NCBI GenBank assembly: GCA_021154065.1
Contig: JAJKJG010000076.1
Location: 1 to 8,858, forward strand
Direction of reading: 5' to 3'
From: Methylobacterium sp.
Lineage (GTDB): Bacteria > Pseudomonadota > Alphaproteobacteria > Rhizobiales > Beijerinckiaceae
Length of the DNA: 8,858 nt
Part shown: positions 339-8,858 of the stretch, one piece after another
Layout of the letters: each line of letters starts with the position of its first letter
Numbering within the stretch: position 1 is the stretch's first letter
Program-made: the position numbers and the translations under genes
The notes under the pieces: model-generated
The model's database searches: none
The model's input: the letters and a program-made list of their open reading frames with translations, nothing else
Told to the model about the DNA's origin: nothing

Positions 339-1769
339 TCAATGCGCGCCGCCGAGCGGGATGCGTATCTCGCAACGCAGTCCTGCTGGGGCGAAGTCGA
401 AATCGACCGAGCCACCGGCCTCCTGCTCGAGGCCGCGCTCGATCAGGCGCGAGCCGAAGCCCTTGCTCTTGCGCGGCTCGACCGGCGGGCCGCCGCGCTC
501 GATCCAGTTGAGGCGCACCTCGCCGCCGTTGATGCGGCGATCAACGCGCCAGCCGACCTCGACCCGGCCGGCGGGTTTCGACAGCGCGCCGTATTTCGCC
601 GCGTTGGTCAGCATCTCGTGGAAGACCATGCCGGCGACGAGCGCGGTCTTTGCCGGCAGCATGACCGGCTCGCCGTCGAGACGCACCCGCGCGGCACCGT
701 CGCCGTTGCGGTAGGCGGCGGCTTCGTTGGCGAGGATCTCGTGCAGCTCGGCGCCCTGCCACTCGCTTTCTGTGAGCAGATTGTGGGTCTTGGAGATGGC
801 GAGGAGGCGCGCCTCGAAGGCCTCGCTGAACTCCTCGATCGAGCCGGCGCCGCGCGCCGTCTGCGCGGCGATCGATTGCACCGTCGCCAACGTGTTCTTG
901 ACCCGATGATTGAGCTCGTTGAGGAGTAGCTCGCGGCGCTCCTCTGCGGTCTTGCGCTCAGTGACGTCCTGCGAGACGCCGACGAGACGCAGCGAACCAT
1001 CGTCCCGATCGATAGCCCGTCCGCGGATCTGCACGCAGTGCAGGCTGCCGTCGGGCCAGACCACCCGATACTCGCTGTCGAAGCTCGCGCGCTCGGCGAT
1101 CGACCGGCGGAGCCCCGCCGCCTGGCGCTCGCGCTCGTCGGGGTGCAGCGTGGCGACGAGATCCGCGTAGGAAAACGCTTCGTCGGGCGCCCGGCCGAAA
1201 TTCGCCTTGAAGGTCTCCGACGCGGTGAGCTCGCCGGTATCGACGGCGTATTCCCAGGCACCGAAATCGCCCGCCTCCATGGCAATGCGCAGCCTCGCCT
1301 CGCCTTCCGCGAGCGCGGCCGCGGCGCGCTCCTGCTGGATGAGGTAATCGCGGACCTGAAGCTGGCGGCGGCGCGCCCGCAACGCCGATTGCACCGCGCT
1401 GACGAGCGTCAGGCCGTGCAGCGGGCGCTCGAGGAACATCACGTTGCCGAGCACCTCGCTCAAATGCAGGTGCGGCAGGCCCTTGCGCAGCGCGTTCGCC
1501 TCGCGGGTCAGGACGACGAAGGGCGGGTCGGACCAGGGCGGGCGCTGGTCGAGATGCCGCTTGAGGCTGGCGAGATCCTGCCGCGAGAGCGCCTCCTCCT
1601 CGACGAGCGCGGCCCCGATGCCATCGCCGATCGATGCCGCAAAGGCTTCGTAGTCCGGGCAGATCCGGCAATCGATCTGGGCTCCCTTCAGGAGCCGGCA
1701 GGCGCTCTCCGCGTCGCGGCCGGTCGGGGCCAGGATGATGACCGGACCGGCGTCAGTCTTGCCCCTCAC
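339..1769 (-). CDS. PAS-containing HWE-family sensor histidine kinase with pseudo-receiver N-terminus
   Basis: A predicted soluble sensor kinase of 476 residues; no membrane segment is apparent. Residues about 9-130 have a receiver-like pattern, but the usual phospho-acceptor Asp position holds Glu57 and the conserved Lys is Arg115 (FLERP), so this domain probably cannot be phosphorylated. Residues about 157-280 form a PAS domain ending in the typical DVTERK. The dimerisation/phospho-acceptor helix carries ELNHRVKN with His288. The ATPase domain shows the HWE signature: His384 in the N-box (FHEMLTNAAKYG, Asn389) and Trp422-x-Glu424, with GFG at 437-439. In alphaproteobacteria, kinases of this and the related HisKA2 class often act on receivers such as PhyR; the partner here is unknown. 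The start is GTG, overlapping the kaiC stop in GTGA, with GGAG eight bases upstream. This implies translational coupling and a joint role with KaiC. Confidence 0.9.
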   Translation of the reverse strand: MRGKTDAGPVIILAPTGRDAESACRLLKGAQIDCRICPDYEAFAASIGDGIGAALVEEEALSRQDLASLKRHLDQRPPWSDPPFVVLTREANALRKGLPHLHLSEVLGNVMFLERPLHGLTLVSAVQSALRARRRQLQVRDYLIQQERAAAALAEGEARLRIAMEAGDFGAWEYAVDTGELTASETFKANFGRAPDEAFSYADLVATLHPDERERQAAGLRRSIAERASFDSEYRVVWPDGSLHCVQIRGRAIDRDDGSLRLVGVSQDVTERKTAEERRELLLNELNHRVKNTLATVQSIAAQTARGAGSIEEFSEAFEARLLAISKTHNLLTESEWQGAELHEILANEAAAYRNGDGAARVRLDGEPVMLPAKTALVAGMVFHEMLTNAAKYGALSKPAGRVEVGWRVDRRINGGEVRLNWIERGGPPVEPRKSKGFGSRLIERGLEQEAGGSVDFDFAPAGLRCEIRIPLGGAH

Positions 1770-3286
1770 GTCTGGGGCTCCGCCGCTTGGCCGCGCATGA
1801 GGCCTCCTGCCCCGCCGACATAGCGCGGCACGCCGGTCAGCACGCCCTCGAAGTCCGTGAGCGGCGCGCCGACCTTGATGCCGCTCGCGCCCATCGTGAA
1901 CTCGCGGATCGTGTCCTCGTGCGCGCCGCCGCGGTTCTTGATCACCGACACCGCCTTGCGGATGCGCCCTCCGGACTCGAAGAACCGCAGCAGCAGCACC
2001 GCGTCGGCGATATAGCTGATGTTGAGCGTCGATTGCATGTTGCCGACGAGGCCGAGCTGGGGACTGATCAGGAACGTCGCGACGCCAACTTGGCTGAGGT
2101 AGGACAGGAGCTCGTGCACCTGCAGCAGCAGCTGCTTCTCCTCGGGCATCGCCGCCATGTACCCGGTCAGGCTGTCGATGACGATCACCCGGGCGCCGAC
2201 CCGTTCCACGTCCTGGCGCACGATCCAGGCGAACTCGCCCGGCGCGAGCTCGGCCGGATCGAGCTGGCGCAGCGACACGAGGCCGGCCCGGATCTGCGGC
2301 TCGATGTCGATGCCGAGCTTCTTCGAGCGCGTGATCAGCGTCCCGGCGCGCTCGTCGAACTCATAGATCGCGCTGCGCTCGCCGCGGTGGGCGGCGGCCA
2401 GCATGTATTGCAGCGCGATCGAGGTCTTGCCGATGCCGGCCGGCCCGAGGACGAGCGTGCTCGTGCCCCGCAGCGGGCCGCCATCGAGGAGCGCGTCGAG
2501 CTCGGGCACGCCGCTCTCGATCTGCTCGGTCAGGAAATCGCGGTGATGGTGGGCGGCGACGAGCCGCGGGAAGACGTCGAGTCCGCCCGGGCGGATGACG
2601 TAATCGTGCCAGCCTTCGAGGAAGGCCGAGCCGCGCATCTTTTGCACCTCGATGCGCCGCCGCGCGGCGCCGAACTCCATCGTCAGGCGCTCGAGCGCGA
2701 TGACGCCGTGGCAGATGCTGTGCAGCTGCAGATCGGTAGGGCCGCCGGTGAGGTCATCGAGCAGCAGCACCGTGCAGTCCTGGCCCGTGAAGTATTGCTT
2801 GAGGGCGAGAATCTGGCGCCGGTAGCGCAGCGGGTCCTGGGCGAGAAGCCGCATCTCGGACAGGCTATCGAAGACGACGCGCTTCGGCTGCACCACCTTC
2901 ACCTTGTCGAGGATCGCCTTCATGGTCTCGCCAAGCTCGACCTCCCAGGGATGGAGCAGCGTCTGCTCCTGGTCGAGCGATAGGGCCCTCTCGGCCGAGG
3001 CGAACTCGAACAGGTCGATACCGTCGAGCGACCAGTGATGGCTCGTGGCGACGGCGCGCAGCTCCTCCTCGGACTCGGAGAGCGTGACGTAGAGCCCGGC
3101 CTCGCCGAGGTGGCGGCCCTCGAGCAGAAACTGCAGCGCCAGCGTGGTCTTGCCGGCGCCGGGCGCGCCCTCGACGAGATAGACGCGATTGGCGAGCAAG
3201 CCGCCGCGCAGCACGTCGTCGAGGCCGATGATGCCCGTTGAGGCGCGGGGCGGGCTCTTCAGCACGGCGGGATGAGCGTCGTTCAT
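1766..3286 (-). CDS. kaiC: KaiC-family double-domain ATPase
   Basis: A cytosolic RecA-superfamily protein of 506 residues with two tandem KaiC domains, close to the usual KaiC length. Domain 1 (about 15-245) has Walker A GAPGAGKTT (40-48) and a Walker B strand ending at Asp140. Domain 2 (about 250-485) has Walker A GPAGIGKTS (281-289) and Walker B VIVIDSL with Asp371. Acidic residues suited to catalysis follow the first strands (Glu71; Asp311-Glu312). In cyanobacterial KaiC the domain-2 phosphosites are adjacent Ser and Thr. By my alignment the equivalents here are Ser424 and Tyr425, inside NISYIAD. No kaiA or kaiB is nearby, so a signalling or stress role with the coupled HWE kinase is more likely than a full clock. 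ATG 3286 is preferred: GAAGG lies just upstream and a possible EcfG promoter leaves a sensible leader. A TTG at 3337 would add 17 unconserved-looking residues. Confidence 0.88.
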   Translation of the reverse strand: MNDAHPAVLKSPPRASTGIIGLDDVLRGGLLANRVYLVEGAPGAGKTTLALQFLLEGRHLGEAGLYVTLSESEEELRAVATSHHWSLDGIDLFEFASAERALSLDQEQTLLHPWEVELGETMKAILDKVKVVQPKRVVFDSLSEMRLLAQDPLRYRRQILALKQYFTGQDCTVLLLDDLTGGPTDLQLHSICHGVIALERLTMEFGAARRRIEVQKMRGSAFLEGWHDYVIRPGGLDVFPRLVAAHHHRDFLTEQIESGVPELDALLDGGPLRGTSTLVLGPAGIGKTSIALQYMLAAAHRGERSAIYEFDERAGTLITRSKKLGIDIEPQIRAGLVSLRQLDPAELAPGEFAWIVRQDVERVGARVIVIDSLTGYMAAMPEEKQLLLQVHELLSYLSQVGVATFLISPQLGLVGNMQSTLNISYIADAVLLLRFFESGGRIRKAVSVIKNRGGAHEDTIREFTMGASGIKVGAPLTDFEGVLTGVPRYVGGAGGLMRGQAAEPQT

Positions 3287-3353
3287 GGCCTTCGGAGAAT
3301 TGGAAGAGACGGCGGACCAAGCCTGCGCCGCCGGCAAGCCGTTTCCACACCAT

Positions 3354-3379
3354 AACCAGAACGGTCAAGGTCCGGTTCC
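3354..3379 (-). promoter_or_regulatory. Candidate EcfG (general stress sigma) promoter for kaiC-kinase operon
   Basis: On the minus strand GGAAC (3379-3375) is followed after 18 bases by GTT (3356-3354). Alphaproteobacterial EcfG promoters are described as GGAAC, about 17-18 bases, then (C)GTT; here a G precedes GTT. The element lies about 70 bases before the kaiC ATG and points towards it. A TTGACC inside the spacer has no matching -10 at normal spacing. The match is short and could be chance, but the location and the HWE kinase context fit. Confidence 0.45.
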
Positions 3380-3579
3380 CGGGGCACCTCACGATAACCG
3401 GGGATGGCGAAAGCCAAGAACGAGGGCTCGCCTTCCGCAGCGGACTTCCTCGAGAGCCGGCGAAGTAAGTACGGCTTAAGACATCCAATCTAGGCTGCCC
3501 TCGTTTGGTGCGGCGCGTTGGGCGGCAAGGCTCCGGAATACTTCGAGACGGTCGAGCAACCGCGATGCAAGGCCTTGCC

Positions 3580-4674
3580 ATGCCGCCTCACGCCGGCGGC
3601 TCCGCCGCCCAGACCGTGGTGCTCGTCACGGACCGCCCGAACCCGAATGTCGCCCTCAGCGATGCCCTGCACGCGGTGGCCGATATCACGGTCGTCGGGC
3701 CGGAGGAGGATTGGAGCCGACAGGGGCCGCTTGCCGCCGTCGTCGCCGACCTCACGCTCGGGCGTGCGCAATCGGTGAATTGCCTGCGCCGGCTTCAGCT
3801 CCGCTACGCCGGCGCGGCGCTGCCGCTGTTGTGCCTGCTGCGGCAGGTCACCCGCGAGGCGGTGCTCCAGGCAAAGGCGCTTGGCGCCGACGCCTGCATG
3901 CCGGCCGATGCCGCGCCCGAAACCGTGACGCACGCGCTCGTCAAGATCCTGAGCCCGGAGCAGTCGGTTCCCGACCGCCTGATCCAGGTCTCGGCGGCAC
4001 GGACCGGGGACATTCTCGGCGGGCTCTTCCGCGCCGCGCAGGACGGGGTTGCGCCAAGCATGGCGCTCGTCGAGCGCGGCCTCGATCCGGTTCTCGACGC
4101 CATGGCGGCGGGCGGCCTCAGCCGCTGGCTCGACACTGTATGGGCCTACGACGACGGCACCTACCAGCACTGTCTCCTCGTCGCCGGCCTCGCCGCGAAC
4201 TTCGCCCAGCATCTCGGCTTCTCGCGCCCCGATCAGCGCCGCCTGACGCGCGCCGCGCTCGTCCACGACGTCGGCAAGGCCCGGATCCCCTACGCCATCC
4301 TCAACAAGCCTGGGCGGCTCGACGATGCCGAGCAGGCGATCATGCGCACCCATCCGGCCGCCGGCTTCGAGCTCCTCCGCGACGGCGGTGAATGCGATCC
4401 GGTGACGCTCGACGCGGTGCGCCACCATCACGAGATGCTCGACGGCTCGGGGTATCCCGACGGCCTGCGCGGCCCCGAGATCGGCGACCTCGTCCGGCTC
4501 TTGACGATCTGCGACATCTACGCCGCCCTGACCGAGCGCCGCGCCTACAAGCCGCCGCTCCCGGGCGAGGACGCGCTCGCGATCCTCGCCGGGATGGGCG
4601 GCAAGCTCGAGATCAGGCTCGTCGCGGCCTTCGGCGATTCGATCCGCGCCGGCGCGCTCGCCAGCGCCGCCTAG
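3580..4674 (+). CDS. Cyclic-di-GMP phosphodiesterase, degenerate receiver plus HD-GYP domain
   Basis: A 364-residue cytosolic protein predicted to hydrolyse cyclic-di-GMP. Residues about 10-125 look like a receiver: Asp57 sits where the phospho-acceptor would be (AAVVADLTL), but the conserved Thr/Ser is Leu and the conserved Lys is Met107, so normal phosphorelay is doubtful. Residues about 190-355 are HD-GYP with all key motifs: His197 (YQH), His229-Asp230 (LVHDVGKARIP), HHExxDGxGYPxGL at 283-296, and D312-IYAALTERRAYKPP. The catalytic half therefore appears intact. ATG 3580 is chosen because AAGG lies seven bases before it. ATG 3565, GTG 3508 and TTG 3505 are in-frame alternatives with poorer sites. 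The gene is divergent from the kaiC-kinase pair across a 293-base gap, which suggests shared control. No terminator with a T-run was seen after it. Confidence 0.9.
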   Translation: MPPHAGGSAAQTVVLVTDRPNPNVALSDALHAVADITVVGPEEDWSRQGPLAAVVADLTLGRAQSVNCLRRLQLRYAGAALPLLCLLRQVTREAVLQAKALGADACMPADAAPETVTHALVKILSPEQSVPDRLIQVSAARTGDILGGLFRAAQDGVAPSMALVERGLDPVLDAMAAGGLSRWLDTVWAYDDGTYQHCLLVAGLAANFAQHLGFSRPDQRRLTRAALVHDVGKARIPYAILNKPGRLDDAEQAIMRTHPAAGFELLRDGGECDPVTLDAVRHHHEMLDGSGYPDGLRGPEIGDLVRLLTICDIYAALTERRAYKPPLPGEDALAILAGMGGKLEIRLVAAFGDSIRAGALASAA

Positions 4675-4813: not shown

Positions 4814-5041
4814 ATGCGGCGTATTTCGAGCGCAGAGTTGGTGCGGCATTTCAGCGTGCATTCGGACGTGGCGCTGCACGAGCCCGTCGTGATCACCCGC
4901 AACGGCCGCGACCGGCTGGTGCTCCTCAGCGTCGCGCAGCTGCGCGAGCTCCTGGCGCGCGCGCTCGAGCGGACGCAGGACCCGTCGGCAAAGCTCGCGC
5001 TCGAGGACGAGCTCGAGGCGTTCCTATCGAGCGCGGCTTAG
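4814..5041 (+). CDS. Phd/YefM-family antitoxin-like protein
   Basis: A 75-residue protein whose N-terminal half fits the Phd/YefM antitoxin fold: ISSAELVRHFS, then EPVVITRNGRDRLVLLS, then a helix VAQLREL. Family members bind DNA as dimers with this N-terminal part and neutralise a toxin with the C-terminal tail, here acidic and helical (about 53-75). ATG 4814 is preferred because the domain begins there and GGAGGG (4797-4802) and AGG (4808-4810) lie upstream. An in-frame ATG at 4781 would add eleven arginine-rich residues. No RelE-, Doc- or PIN-like toxin follows: the next 168 bases hold only a tiny hydrophobic frame, then an opposing gene. It may be an orphan antitoxin or a stand-alone regulator. 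Confidence 0.78.
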   Translation: MRRISSAELVRHFSVHSDVALHEPVVITRNGRDRLVLLSVAQLRELLARALERTQDPSAKLALEDELEAFLSSAA

Positions 5042-5209: not shown

Positions 5210-5995
5210 TCAGCACACCCCCGTCAGCTCGCCGAGCACCTCGGCCAGCTCCGGCGTGCACGCCAGAATCGCGTTCCCCTTCGTCAGCCCCTCCCCCGCC
5301 AGATAATCGTTCACCCAGCCGCCGGCCTCGCGCACCAGCACCAAGCCCGCCAGCGCGTCCCAGGCGTTCATGTGGAGCTCGACATAGGCTTCCATGCGCC
5401 CGGCGGCGACGTAGGCGAGCGCGAGGGCGCCGGAGCCGCCGCGGCGGACGGCGGCGCCGGCCTGCTTCAGGCGCGCGACGACGCCGACGTAAGCCTCGAG
5501 CGGAACGCGGGTCGACCAGCCGGCCTCGATCGTCGCCTGGGCGATGTCGCCAAGGCCGCTGACCCGGATGATCTCGCCGTCGAGCGTCGCGCCGCGTCCG
5601 CGCGCCGCGGCGTAGAGCTGGTTGTGGGCGGGGTCGTAGATGACGCCGATCAGCGCCTCGCCGGCGCGGACAAAGCCAAGCGAGACGCAGTAATGCGGGA
5701 TGCCGCGGGCGAAGTTCGCGGTGCCGTCGATCGGGTCGACGACCCAGGCGCCCTGGCCGGATTGGCCCAACGCGCCGCCCTCCTCCTCGCCGAAGAAGGC
5801 GTCCTCGGGGAACGCCTCGTGCAGGCGCAGCCGGATCAGCGCCTCGACCTCGGCGTCGCTTGCAAGCACGTAGTCCTGCGGGCCCTTGAAGGCGATGGCG
5901 AGCGCCGAAGGACGGTCGTGGAAGCGCCGGCGGGCGAGCGCGCCGGCCTCGCGCGCAATCGCCGAGGCGGCGAGAAGCCGGTGCTCGAGATCCAT
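5210..5995 (-). CDS. Inositol monophosphatase family protein
   Basis: A 261-residue Mg2+-dependent phosphatase of the IMPase/FBPase/CysQ superfamily, the usual length for IMPases. Metal and substrate residues are visible: FGEE with Glu70, the signature WVVDPIDGT with Asp87 and Asp90, and the C-terminal WD motif at Trp212-Asp213 (NAWDALAG). The likely reaction is removal of phosphate from inositol 1-phosphate. Bisphosphate nucleotidase or histidinol-phosphatase activity cannot be excluded from motifs alone. ATG 5995 is chosen because the protein then begins as family members do (MDLEHRLL). The longer start at 6070 adds 25 unconserved-looking residues and lies inside an operator-like palindrome at a probable promoter -10. 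The gene is divergent from the RpiR-type regulator. The shared operator motif suggests co-control with inositol genes. Confidence 0.88.
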   Translation of the reverse strand: MDLEHRLLAASAIAREAGALARRRFHDRPSALAIAFKGPQDYVLASDAEVEALIRLRLHEAFPEDAFFGEEEGGALGQSGQGAWVVDPIDGTANFARGIPHYCVSLGFVRAGEALIGVIYDPAHNQLYAAARGRGATLDGEIIRVSGLGDIAQATIEAGWSTRVPLEAYVGVVARLKQAGAAVRRGGSGALALAYVAAGRMEAYVELHMNAWDALAGLVLVREAGGWVNDYLAGEGLTKGNAILACTPELAEVLGELTGVC

Positions 5996-6058
5996 GCTTG
6001 AGGCCACGCCACGCTCCACACGGACGTGCCGGAACAAAGTGTCCGGCGCTTGCGGTTT

Positions 6059-6074
6059 TGGAACGTTCATTCCA
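6059..6074. promoter_or_regulatory. Candidate IolR-type operator, perfect TGGAA-N6-TTCCA
   Basis: A perfect inverted repeat with five-base arms and a six-base centre (CGTTCA). It matches exactly the GGAA-N6-TTCC motif I recall for the RpiR-type inositol regulator IolR of Sinorhizobium meliloti. It sits between the phosphatase gene and the divergent RpiR-family gene, over the probable -10 of the phosphatase promoter. A weaker copy, GGAA-N6-GTCC, lies at 6031-6044, 29 bases away centre to centre. Confidence 0.6.
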
Positions 6075-6095
6075 TTGTCGGACGCGCGCTGTCAA
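6066..6095 (-). promoter_or_regulatory. Probable promoter of the inositol monophosphatase gene
   Basis: On the minus strand a perfect TTGACA -35 box (6095-6090) is followed after 18 bases by AATGAA (6071-6066), which matches TATAAT at three of six positions. The -10 lies inside the 16-base operator-like palindrome, so a bound repressor would block polymerase. Transcription would start near 6060, downstream of the ATG at 6070, giving a leader of roughly 65 bases before ATG 5995. Confidence 0.45.
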
Positions 6096-6142
6096 TTGCT
6101 GGCGCAGTGGCGGCGGGGCGCGGCCGGTGGCCCGCAACGAGG

Positions 6143-6185
6143 CCGGTGCAATGAGGTGAAACGGGTGAAACGCGCGTTGCACCGG
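6143..6185. repeat. Nine-base inverted repeat enclosing a nine-base tandem repeat
   Basis: Arms CCGGTGCAA (6143-6151) and TTGCACCGG (6177-6185) are perfectly complementary, with a 25-base loop. Inside the loop GGTGAAACG occurs twice with no gap (6155-6163 and 6164-6172). It lies in the non-coding region before the RpiR-family gene. It could be a regulator-binding array or a leader-RNA structure; its role is not known. Confidence 0.55.
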
Positions 6186-6191
6186 ACCGAA

Positions 6192-6223
6192 AGAGCGGAC
6201 GCGCCGTCCGGCAGAGCGGACGG
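6192..6223. repeat. Overlapping, mutually exclusive hairpins with 21-base direct repeat
   Basis: AGAGCGGACG occurs at 6192-6201 and again at 6213-6222, exactly 21 bases apart. The intervening CGTCCG (6205-6210) can pair either with CGGACG before it (6196-6201, three-base loop) or, as CCGTCCG (6204-6210), with CGGACGG after it (6217-6223, six-base loop). Only one hairpin can form at a time. The end of the element is about 60 bases before the RpiR-family start codon. Confidence 0.5.
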
Positions 6224-6285
6224 CCGACTCCGGGCGGCCGGGGGCCGATTGGGGGCCTGCGCCGGCGGCGCGGTATCGGGAGAAT

Positions 6286-7182
6286 ATGGGCGGGAACACC
6301 GGAGAATCGGGCCTTGGAACCCGGGTCATGCCGGCGGATAGGGCGCGAGAGGACGGGGCGGATTGGAAGGCGCCGCCGCGGGATTTCGAGCGCTTCCGCG
6401 AGCTTCTGCTCGATCGCCGCGACGGTCTGCCGTCGCGGCTCGTGCGCGCCGCCGAATATGCGCTTGCTCATCCGGACGAGATCGCCTTCGGCACCGTCGC
6501 CTCGGTCGCCGAAGCCGCCGAGATTCAGCCCTCGGCATTGATCCGGTTCGCCAAGGCGCTGGGCTATAACGGCTTTTCGGAGCTGCAAGAGGTCTTCCGG
6601 CATCGCCTGCGCGAGCGCTGGCCGCCTTACGGCGAGCGCCTGGCAAAGCTCCGGACCGAGGCCCCGGACGGCCCGGCCGGGCTGCTTAAGCGCTTCAGCG
6701 CCTCGTCGGCGCTCTCGCTCGCCAAGCTCGACGACACCGTGGTCCCAGAGGATCTGGAGCGCGCGGTCTCGGTCCTGGCCGGCGCCGCGACGATCCATCT
6801 TCTCGGCCTGAGGCGCGCCTTCCCGGTCGCCTCCTATTTGGCCTATGCCCTTGGCAAGCTTCAGGTTTCGGCGAACCTCGTCGACCATGTCGGGGCGCTT
6901 GCCGGCGAGCAGATCGGCGCCGCGCGCGACGGCGACGCGCTCATCGCGGTGAGCTTCACGCCCTATACGCCGGCGACGATCGAGCTCGCCAACGCCTTCT
7001 CAGCGAAGGGGTTTCCGGTCGTTGCCATCACCGACTCGGCGTTCTCGCCGCTGGCGCCGGCGGCGACCGCGCGGATCGAGATCGTCGAGGCCGATGTCGG
7101 CGGCTTCCGCTCGCTCGCGGCGACCTTCTGCGTCGCCATGACCCTTGCGGTGGCGGTTGCGGAACGGCGCGGCGAGCGTTGA
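6286..7182 (+). CDS. MurR/RpiR-family transcriptional regulator, probable inositol regulator
   Basis: A 298-residue cytosolic DNA-binding protein. Residues about 34-110 form the RpiR-type helix-turn-helix domain; the recognition segment is near SVAEAAEIQPSALIRFAKALGYNGFSEL (73-100). Residues about 145-285 form a SIS sugar-isomerase fold, which in this family binds phosphosugars or related ligands. ATG 6286 has GGGAG three bases upstream; ATG 6328, with GGAA eight bases before it, would remove 14 residues and remains possible. The gene is convergent with the iolG-like gene (12-base gap) and divergent from the phosphatase. RpiR-family IolR proteins control inositol catabolism in rhizobia, and motifs matching that operator occur in front of two neighbouring genes. 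A role as IolR, probably a repressor, is therefore inferred but not shown. Confidence 0.88.
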   Translation: MGGNTGESGLGTRVMPADRAREDGADWKAPPRDFERFRELLLDRRDGLPSRLVRAAEYALAHPDEIAFGTVASVAEAAEIQPSALIRFAKALGYNGFSELQEVFRHRLRERWPPYGERLAKLRTEAPDGPAGLLKRFSASSALSLAKLDDTVVPEDLERAVSVLAGAATIHLLGLRRAFPVASYLAYALGKLQVSANLVDHVGALAGEQIGAARDGDALIAVSFTPYTPATIELANAFSAKGFPVVAITDSAFSPLAPAATARIEIVEADVGGFRSLAATFCVAMTLAVAVAERRGER

Positions 7183-7194
7183 TTTCGCAGGAGG

Positions 7195-8184
7195 TTACCC
7201 GACGCGCACCGGCCTGCCGGAGCGCGCCGCCTCGGTCGCGGCGTCGGCCAGAATCTGCGCCCGCAGGCCGTCCTCCCCCGAGGGCGAAGCCGGCGCCTCG
7301 CCGAGCGCTGCGGCAACGAACGCGTCCAGCTCGGCCCGATAGGCCTCGGCGTAGCGCTCGAGGAAGAAGGGCAGCGCCGGGTCCGTGCGGTAGCCCGCCG
7401 AATCGGCGAGCGTGACGGTCGTCGCCTGCCGGTTGCCGGCGCTCAAAAGCCCTGTCGAACCATGGACTTCGATGCGCTGGTCGTAGCCGTATGCGGCGCG
7501 GCGCGAGTTCGAGATCTGGGCGATCCTGCCGGACGCGGTCTTGAGCAGCACGGCGGCCGTGTCGACGTCGTCGGCGGCGCCGATCGCCGGGTCGATGAGG
7601 CAGGCGCCGACCGCGTGCACCTCGACCGGCTCCTCGCCGAGCAGAAAGCGAGCCATATCAAGGTCATGGATCATCATGTCGCGAAACAGCCCGCCCGACC
7701 AGGCGGCGTGCTCCGCTGGCGGCGGGGCGGGGTCGCGGGAGAGGATCGTGACGATCTCGACGGCGCCAAGCTCGCCGGCGCGCAGACGCCGGGCAAGCGC
7801 CGCAAAGCTTGGGTCGAAGCGGCGGTTGAAGCCGATCATGAGGGTTGCGCCGCTCGCCGCAACCACTTCCAGACATTTGCGAATCCGGCCCGCGTCGAGA
7901 TCGACCGGCTTCTCGCAGAAGACCGCCTTGCCGGCCCGCGCGGCACGCTCGATCAGCCCGACATGAAGGTCGGTCGGGGTGCAGATCACGACAGCGTCGA
8001 TGTCGCGGTCCTCGATGATCGAGTCGAGGTCGCGGACATGCGAGCCGGTCGCCGCCGCAAGGGCCTCGGCCGCCGGCGGGCTCGCGTCCGCGATCGCCGC
8101 GAGCCTGGCCCGCGGATGCGCCGCGCTGTTGGCGCCGTGGATGCGCCCGATCCGCCCGGCGCCGAGAAGCCCAATCCGCAGCAT
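7195..8184 (-). CDS. iolG: Gfo/Idh/MocA-family oxidoreductase, probable inositol 2-dehydrogenase
   Basis: A 329-residue NAD-dependent dehydrogenase. The N-terminal Rossmann fold starts with GLLGAGRIG (5-13). The EKP motif gives the catalytic Lys92, and GGLFRDMMIHDLD supplies Asp169 and His173 with the D-x3-H spacing of characterised IolG enzymes. The predicted reaction is myo-inositol plus NAD+ to scyllo-inosose, the first step of inositol catabolism. Close relatives use other inositols or sugars, so substrate choice is inferred partly from the RpiR regulator and phosphatase alongside. ATG 8184 is chosen because GGGGA precedes it and the Rossmann fold begins at residue 2. A start at 8229 would add 15 residues before the fold. 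The gene ends 12 bases from the convergent regulator and is divergent from the short-chain dehydrogenase. Confidence 0.82.
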   Translation of the reverse strand: MLRIGLLGAGRIGRIHGANSAAHPRARLAAIADASPPAAEALAAATGSHVRDLDSIIEDRDIDAVVICTPTDLHVGLIERAARAGKAVFCEKPVDLDAGRIRKCLEVVAASGATLMIGFNRRFDPSFAALARRLRAGELGAVEIVTILSRDPAPPPAEHAAWSGGLFRDMMIHDLDMARFLLGEEPVEVHAVGACLIDPAIGAADDVDTAAVLLKTASGRIAQISNSRRAAYGYDQRIEVHGSTGLLSAGNRQATTVTLADSAGYRTDPALPFFLERYAEAYRAELDAFVAAALGEAPASPSGEDGLRAQILADAATEAARSGRPVRVG

Positions 8185-8185
8185 T

Positions 8186-8224
8186 TTCCCCGCTCGTATT
8201 TCCCCAATTCCAATGCCGTATTCC
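8186..8224 (-). promoter_or_regulatory. Cluster of four GGAA half-sites upstream of iolG
   Basis: Read towards iolG, GGAA occurs at 8224-8221, 8211-8208, 8203-8200 and 8189-8186, the last just before the start codon, where it may serve as ribosome binding site. GGGAATACG and GGGGAAATACG are near copies. They resemble the operator half-site TGGAA but are direct, not inverted, so the link is weak. No convincing promoter boxes were found for iolG. Confidence 0.22.
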
Positions 8225-8288
8225 CACAATCCAACCGGATGCCGGGCGGAGGGGTCGAGAGAACGTTTGATCCAGGTTGACCGGCAGG

Positions 8289-8304
8289 TGGAATTATAAT
8301 TTCA
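8289..8304. promoter_or_regulatory. Candidate IolR-type operator, TGGAA-N6-TTTCA
   Basis: This 16-base element matches the perfect palindrome at 6059-6074 at nine of ten arm positions; only the right arm differs (TTTCA for TTCCA). Its core AATTATAATT (8292-8301) is itself a perfect palindrome. It lies between the divergent iolG-like and short-chain dehydrogenase genes, 35 bases before the latter's start codon, and covers a consensus -10 box. It could control both genes. Confidence 0.5.
8295..8300 (+). promoter_or_regulatory. Consensus -10 box for the short-chain dehydrogenase gene
   Basis: A perfect TATAAT stands out in very G+C-rich surroundings, 39 bases before ATG 8340. No -35 box sits at 16-18 bases: TTGACC (8277-8282) is 12 bases away and TTGATC (8267-8272) is 22. 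The TATAAT is part of the palindromic operator core, so operator symmetry alone could also explain it. Confidence 0.38.
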
Positions 8305-8339
8305 TCGGCGCGCGTGCCCAGACCCCGGTCCAAGCCCTC

Positions 8340-8858
8340 ATGAGCGATGTACCGACCCGCCAGCTCGGCGGCAAGGTCGCCGTCGTCACCGGCGGCACGC
8401 AAGGCTTGGGCGAGGCGATCGCGCGGCTGTTCGCGGCGCGCGGCGCGGCGGGCCTCGTGATCTGCGGCCGCCAGAGCCACAAGGGCGAGGCTGTCGCCGC
8501 CGACCTTACCGGCCAAGGCTGCCGCACCGTATTCGTGCGCGCCGATCTTGGCGCGGTCGACGACGCCCGCGCCGTCGTCGCGGCGGCGGAGCGCGCCTTC
8601 GGCCGCGTCGACGCCCTCGTCAACGCCGCCGGCATCACCGACCGCGGCACGATCTTCGACACCTCGCCGGAGCTCTTCGACCGCATGGTGGCGGTGAACC
8701 TGCGGGCGCCGTTCTTCCTCATGCAGGAGGCGGCAAAGCTCATGCGGCGCGAGCGCGTCGAGGGCGCGATGGTCAACATCCTGTCGATGTCGGCCCATGG
8801 CGGCCAGCCCTTCCTCACGCCCTACAGCATGTCGAAGGGAGCGCTCGCGACGCTGACC
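8340..8858 (+). CDS. Short-chain dehydrogenase/reductase, 3' end beyond the window
   Basis: The first 173 residues of a classical SDR (usual length about 250); the frame is open to the last base. Visible motifs are the cofactor loop TGGTQGLG (17-24), Asp69, NAAG (95-98), Asn120, Ser149 or Ser151, and the catalytic YSMSK (Tyr162, Lys166). Gly43-Arg44 at the end of the second strand, rather than an Asp, hints at NADP(H), but this is weak. Substrate is unknown; polyol, sugar or inositol-derived ketones are plausible given the neighbours. The start is ATG 8340, with no good Shine-Dalgarno sequence upstream. It is divergent from the iolG-like gene across 155 bases holding the operator-like palindrome, so it may belong to the inositol regulon. 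Confidence 0.9.

Follow-up and report, generated by a model that had tools for sequence, protein, structure and literature searches.

An 8,858-nt stretch of DNA assigned to Methylobacterium sp. (GenBank assembly GCA_021154065.1, contig JAJKJG010000076.1, forward strand), which we call the window at its full length, carries two copies of a 16-base palindrome, TGGAA-N6-TTCCA, on either side of a gene for an RpiR-family regulator. The original prediction, made from the letters alone, took the two copies as operators of a small inositol regulon. Are these palindromes genuine operators, which promoters would they control, and is the regulon really small? We are highly confident that the window represents one edge of the inositol-catabolism regulon of a Microvirga-like alphaproteobacterium, placed under the RpiR-family repressor IolR encoded at 6286-7182. 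This view is supported at the sequence level by the sites, their conservation and spacing, the promoter-like elements that overlap them and the best-match relation of the regulator to IolR, from which we infer binding, repression and induction. Published statements are cited from the available portions of PMC2597717, PMC8877191 and the preprint PMC12713135.

Two conserved palindromes beside an iolR gene

Both motifs are present as predicted: operator 1, TGGAACGTTCATTCCA, at 6059-6074 without mismatches, and a second site, hereafter operator 2B, TGGAATTATAATTTCA, at 8289-8304 with one mismatch. The gene arrangement also agrees with the prediction, since site 1 precedes an inositol-monophosphatase-like phosphatase gene (5210-5995, minus strand), site 2 lies between iolG (7195-8184, minus strand) and a gene for an SDR oxidoreductase (8340-8858, plus strand, cut by the window end), and the regulator gene (plus strand, start at 6286 or 6328) is located between the sites. 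With up to two mismatches TGGAA-N6-TTCCA is matched six times in the window against 1.10 expected, a number that none of 200 shuffles reaches. The core GGAA-N6-TTCC with up to one mismatch is not rare, with five matches where 2.23 are expected and 15 of 200 shuffles reach five. A weight matrix built from 34 unique sites of other loci, with the three loci L001, L047 and L048 excluded, assigns 23.4 to operator 1 and 22.4 to operator 2B, whereas the best score per first-order Markov shuffle of the window (n = 60) has a mean of 5.0 and a maximum no higher than 14.4.

The sole relative found in the genome collection is L001, a contig of a Microvirga metagenome-assembled genome (MAG; genome G001), whose regulator is 82% identical to that of the window. 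At the equivalent positions this contig carries TGGAACGTTCATTCCA, identical and in the same place, and TGGAATTATCATTTCA (12010-12025), which differs from operator 2B by one spacer base. They are its only matches with up to two mismatches in 20.8 kb; 2.57 are expected by chance, so their number is at chance level and it is therefore the positions that carry the evidence. A protein search with the regulator, run over 397 genomes sampled from the MAG's family, gave matches at 137 places in 133 of them, and 101 loci were analysed, namely L001 and 100 further places, leaving out the 36 weakest. Within 300 bp upstream of the regulator gene and 30 bp into it, TGGAA-N6-TTCCA with up to one mismatch occurs in 89 of the 101 loci, 50 of them with a perfect copy, whereas none of the 29 remaining anagrams of the half-site, taken as dyads at the same tolerance, occurs in more than one. 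In an unbiased dyad count over these upstream regions TGGAA with a spacer of 6 was the commonest (50), followed by its shifted forms, the best unrelated dyad reaching 12. Grouped by regulator identity, the site is found in 29 of 38 clusters at 85% and in 11 of 15 at 65%. It is present in 81 of the 84 loci with an iol gene nearby versus 8 of the 17 without (Fisher p 2e-6, the loci not being phylogenetically independent, and several of the 17 being short or at contig ends). The original prediction was to be refuted by a lack of conservation in relatives or of association with inositol genes, and neither test refutes it. An unlinked transporter gene of genome G059 has an upstream site scoring 28.1, and upstream of the transporter gene of G348 no strong site was found. 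Five regulator homologues of 50-57% identity (L049, L051, L079, L084 and L143), with no iol genes detected and no site of up to one mismatch upstream, are perhaps retargeted.

The scan of whole genomes with the bare motif, which had also been suggested, proved uninformative: perfect matches number 4-8 per genome in six relatives, compared with 3-7 for the reversed control pattern, and with up to one mismatch the MAG has 49 matches compared with 76 for the control. The other three perfect matches of G001 are taken as chance occurrences, as they have no strong partner at 30 bp; one (L004) adjoins a carboxyl-transferase gene, one (L005) lies among open reading frames (ORFs) of transglutaminase-like proteinases, and two scanned ORFs at the third (L003) had no Pfam match. 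This near-control rate of perfect copies is what one would expect if the palindromes of the window were accidents without a role. The position-specific conservation in 89 of 101 loci, together with the control dyads, practically refutes that explanation, as does the genome scan with a composite pattern described below (44 matches, 2 for the reversed control), and we consider it vanishingly improbable. The two sites are very probably real operators.

The regulator itself has an N-terminal rpiR-type HTH domain (PF01418, 38.0 bits, cut-off 28.3) and a C-terminal SIS domain (PF01380, 62.4 bits, cut-off 25), and three proteins that match it at 99-100% identity across 95% of its length carry the name Microvirga sp. 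MAG. In Sinorhizobium meliloti Ak57 the order is Gfo/Idh-RpiR-iolC-iolD-iolE-iolB, in agreement with the order iolYRCDEB that PMC8877191 credits to Kohler et al., and the sites are present, including a pair 30 bp apart before iolC. The Ak57 RpiR protein, taken as IolR from its iol neighbours, shows 46.6% identity to the window regulator over 87% of the query. Used in turn as query, S. meliloti IolR finds the iolR-locus gene as its best match in six of six genomes (one-way best match), with a clear gap to the next match in the four genomes that have one. The gene is linked to iolG in the window, to iolC, iolD and iolE in L001, and to an iol gene in 84 of 101 loci, and sites of the GGAA-N6-TTCC type are located upstream of iol genes. 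Boutte et al. 2008 (PMC2597717) defined this sequence as the inositol-module motif of Caulobacter and its relatives. By these comparisons the window regulator matches the alphaproteobacterial IolR of the RpiR family, and the earlier assignment to IolR is upheld by both the published motif and the best-match relation.

The regulon is probably not small. In the window IolG exceeds the curated TIGR04380 cut-off for inositol 2-dehydrogenase (428.9 versus 355 bits) and the SDR protein exceeds that of NF004847 (263.8 bits, cut-off 240). The order in L001 is phosphatase (minus strand), site, iolR, iolG (minus strand), site, SDR, iolC, iolD, iolE and a Na/Pi symporter gene, so that the SDR gene heads an SDR-iolC-iolD-iolE run; iolD and iolE exceed their cut-offs and iolC falls slightly under (589.4 versus 600, its ORF start being probably over-long). 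From this order the window is probably the edge of an iol cluster, and SDR-iolC-iolD-iolE may be co-transcribed as an operon.

A pair of probable operators around a predicted SDR promoter

The original prediction found no third copy as good as the first two. This holds, yet a weaker third copy, operator 2A (GAGAACGTTTGATCCA), is located at 8259-8274, with a score of 10.9 that is not significant alone, and exactly 30 bp upstream of operator 2B. The counterpart in L001 is AAGAACGTTTGATCCA, likewise 30 bp from the main site. An iolG-side site was found in 45 of the 65 loci having IolG, and in all 45 a partner lies 29-31 bp away (40 at -30, 3 at +30, 1 at -31 and 1 at +29), no partner above a threshold of 7 being found at any other offset within 120 bp. 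Site 2 is thus one half of an operator pair, a feature beyond the earlier description. On the iolR side few sites have a full partner (11 of 89 at -29 or -30, with 4 more at -25 and 1 at +107), and a GGAAY half-site occurs at -29 to -31 in 44 of 89; in the window a possible degenerate secondary site, CGGAACAAAGTGTCCG, lies at 6030-6045, 29 bp from operator 1, and is weak, scoring 0.8 in the window and 7.6 in L001.

The pair brackets promoter-like elements of the SDR(-iolC) transcript. A -35 hexamer TTGACC (8277-8282, plus strand) lies between 2A and 2B and is kept in 6 of 6 divergent iolG/SDR regions, that is, the window and all five such loci among the 101, and a -10 hexamer TTTCAT (8300-8305, plus strand) overlaps the end of operator 2B. 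An alignment of these intergenic regions (window, L001, L047, L048 and L111) shows a conserved TTGAC between the two palindromes and, where site 2 ends, a conserved TTTCAT; L070 agrees. In a set of 106 loci (the window, the 101 and four named plasmid records) TTGAC-N18-TTTCAT occurs in 22, all of them with the pair (partner at -30 in 21 and at -29 in 1), including the iolC promoter of S. meliloti. Eight Markov-shuffled sets gave 0, 0, 0, 0, 0, 0, 1 and 0, and spacers of 10-17 and 19-26 gave 0 to 2. A stricter composite pattern, of which the partner site is not part, has 44 matches in 43 of the 397 genomes of the order, the other 354 being without an exact match, compared with 2 for the reversed control. 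Thirty of the 44 were inspected: iolC follows in 28, SDR in one (G001) and a sugar-transport operon in one (L218). When the 60 bp upstream are scored, all 30 have their best partner at -30, and 26 of these partners score at least 7, the lowest being 3.7. The genome with the sugar-transport case (G715) has two composites, one before iolC (L236, a 31st match) and the other between a LacI-family gene and a xylose-isomerase-like gene, the latter having a sugar-binding-protein gene behind it and iolG some 4.7 kb further along.

A doubling of function may explain the imperfect half-site of site 2: TTTCA, counted as a mismatch at first reading, is conserved among these composites and probably kept because it is also the -10 element. 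The original prediction further held that both copies cover a probable -10 box. For site 2 the better-supported -10 is TTTCAT; for site 1 no good -10 hexamer is visible, although a -10 would be expected to lie in it. The TATAAT inside site 2 was rejected as the -10 of SDR, since TTGACC lies just 12 bp before it, whereas TTGAC-N18-TTTCAT is the conserved arrangement; it matches the promoter scan on the iolG strand only and is a possible promoter element of that strand.

Does IolR occupy both members of the pair? One palindrome per pair might bind IolR while its partner, 30 bp away, is kept for a second protein or for the promoter architecture. The weakness of operator 2A in the window (10.9) fits such a division, as does the mutation of Caulobacter motif 2, which was without effect in complex medium (PMC2597717). 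We nevertheless judge it improbable, because the partner shares the palindromic consensus of the main site (up to 25.9 with the same matrix) and its offset is fixed in 45 of 45 iolG-side sites and in 30 of 30 composites, where the partner was outside the search pattern. We therefore prefer binding of IolR to both. In this mechanism IolR would recognise TGGAAY-N4-RTTCCA palindromes, and 2A and 2B, 30 bp apart, would enclose the -35 of the SDR(-iolC-iolD-iolE) promoter and overlie its -10. Dimers on the two sites, which at that spacing would lie on roughly the same helix face, would exclude RNA polymerase from the bracketed promoter, and iolG on the opposite strand would share this control. As RpiR proteins are tetrameric in crystal structures (PMC12713135), one IolR tetramer could hold 2A and 2B together. 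Repression may be relieved by a phosphorylated pathway intermediate binding the SIS domain, by analogy with S. meliloti, in which repression of iol genes by IolR is released by the intermediate 2-deoxy-5-keto-D-gluconate 6-phosphate (PMC8877191).

Operator 1 and the divergent phosphatase

Operator 1 raises a different question, namely whether it serves the phosphatase, iolR or both. The phosphatase (PF00459, 192.2 bits, cut-off 27) is under the curated cut-offs for the inositol-1-monophosphatase equivalog (168.9 versus 332 bits) and for histidinol-phosphatase (147.8 versus 275.15 bits), and it is therefore named only as inositol-monophosphatase-like. Its likely start is 5995, although the ORF is open to 6070. 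The ATG inside operator 1 (MNVP...) was considered as the start and is unlikely, as this frame meets stops in L001 and in L185, an unlinked phosphatase locus of G059; the frame stays open in the window (5995-6070) and, over the stretch read, in L048, and automatic annotation might start there. A -35 hexamer TTGACA (6090-6095, minus strand) is presumed to belong to the phosphatase promoter, whose -10 would fall inside operator 1. TTGACA is present near the site in L048 and L185 and absent in L001, and in 65 of 89 loci the divergent strand has TTGAC at a distance of +31 or +32 from the iolR-side site. Operator 1, just downstream of this conserved -35, would block the divergent phosphatase promoter and possibly that of iolR too, and the phosphatase would feed inositol into the pathway.

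The phosphatase could also be a bystander under another promoter, operator 1 being a real IolR site that acts in autoregulation of iolR only. The gene divergent from iolR varies, being the phosphatase (window, L001 and L048), a transporter or SDR, and the site is conserved whichever of them diverges, as such a role would predict. Homologues of the phosphatase away from iolR point the same way: in 28 of 30 genomes 38 places were found, and one of the 30 examined has a strong upstream site, the next best scoring 12.4 and 9.7. However, at that exception (L185) the site is perfect, begins 91 bp ahead of the unlinked phosphatase gene and is itself preceded by TTGACA. In the window 63 bp separate operator 1 from the phosphatase start, compared with 211 or 253 bp to the start of iolR. 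The phosphatase and iolR genes are also linked in 19 of 101 loci, in 2 as divergent genes and in 17 with the order SDR-iolG-phosphatase, although in these 17 the phosphatase is 46-49% identical to that of the window (and the best match in the four such genomes searched). Taken together, autoregulation alone appears rather unlikely, and we favour control of the phosphatase by IolR. This control is likely lineage-limited, given the single strong site among the 30 unlinked loci. Beside these data, a Na/Pi symporter gene lies immediately after iolE in L001 (18956-20608) and could relate to phosphate freed from inositol phosphates.

We finally weigh the observations that speak against an IolR regulon built in this way. 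Bare motif counts are not enriched genome-wide; 12 of the 101 loci are without a site of up to one mismatch, three of them with iol genes; and such a site is missing before IolG in 20 of the 65 IolG loci (two with 2-mismatch sites, one, L092, without any, and 17 with IolG downstream of SDR). At 85% identity the iolG-side site is found in just 7 of 17 clusters. Of the 106 loci 84 have no TTGAC-N18-TTTCAT, among them 42 of the 45 that bear an iolG-side pair and 2 of the 4 plasmid records; the promoters of these loci, some of which are cut short, must be built otherwise. Operator 1 shows no good -10 hexamer, and a strict promoter scan found no promoter there. The iol genes beyond SDR were observed in relatives only, and the MAG of L001, whose completeness is uncertain, yielded neither IolB nor a homologue of the binding protein of the relatives' transporter. 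In Caulobacter, besides the silent motif 2, the spacing of the iolC motifs is 59 bp instead of 30 (PMC2597717), and iolC of Ensifer aridi is not induced on iolR loss (PMC8877191).

A wider proposal is made more tentatively, with somewhat less than even confidence. In many members of the order the iolC-type promoter would be a composite, its -35 flanked by two IolR palindromes set 30 bp apart and its -10 (TTTCAT) provided by the second of them, with one tetramer locking both; and the Microvirga-like lineage would have recruited an inositol-phosphate phosphatase, extending inositol catabolism to phosphorylated inositols. The pairing of site 2 around a promoter and the phosphatase as an IolR target in some lineages appear to go beyond the earlier note. 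An open literature search over titles and abstract openings, with Kohler et al. 2011 and most subscription papers outside it, returned no report of a 30-bp IolR pair or of an IolR-controlled phosphatase, and no priority is claimed. In this way a palindrome spotted by eye becomes a testable promoter-operator grammar for inositol use in the order, with a composite pattern that finds iolC promoters in genomes far better than the motif alone does, and a possible explanation for one 'imperfect' half-site. It also suggests that in some soil bacteria an inositol-phosphate phosphatase is turned on along with inositol breakdown, and the natural layout of the DNA lends itself to the question of how RpiR tetramers act.

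Elsewhere in the window, the region 339-4674 contains genes for a PAS/HWE histidine kinase and a two-domain KaiC-like ATPase, which overlap on the minus strand, adjoining an HD-domain phosphodiesterase-like gene, a possible KaiC-kinase signalling cassette. A 75-aa frame at 4814-5041 (plus strand) matches the Phd/YefM antitoxin family slightly over its cut-off (30.6 versus 29.8 bits).

Relation to known IolR and RpiR systems

The regulator, the motif and the targets of the window belong to an already known kind of system. Like IolR of Caulobacter crescentus (CC1297), the window regulator is of the RpiR family and is encoded beside iol genes, and the same palindrome precedes iolC, idhA and other inositol genes there, with two copies before iolC. 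In Caulobacter, deletion of iolR derepresses idhA, ibpA and iolC, and mutation of motif 1 before iolC raises expression (PMC2597717). Unlike Caulobacter, whose targets include ibpA and iolA, the window has the phosphatase and SDR as probable targets, and its iolR is placed between the phosphatase and iolG.

The S. meliloti system (iolYRCDEB; Kohler et al. 2011, PMC3187398, as cited in PMC8877191) shares the composite promoter-operator with the 30-bp pair before iolC, and has sites upstream of iolY, iolR and iolC. The gene order differs: the pair of the window stands between the divergent iolG and SDR genes, and the divergent neighbour of its iolR is the phosphatase. A more distant parallel is NanR of Streptococcus pneumoniae (PMC12713135, a preprint), also of the RpiR family, which exists in a dimer-tetramer equilibrium, has a palindrome with a degenerate half-site nearby, and takes a phosphosugar effector at the tetramer interface. 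NanR differs from the window system in being an activator, in having its half-site 23 bp away and in responding to a different sugar.

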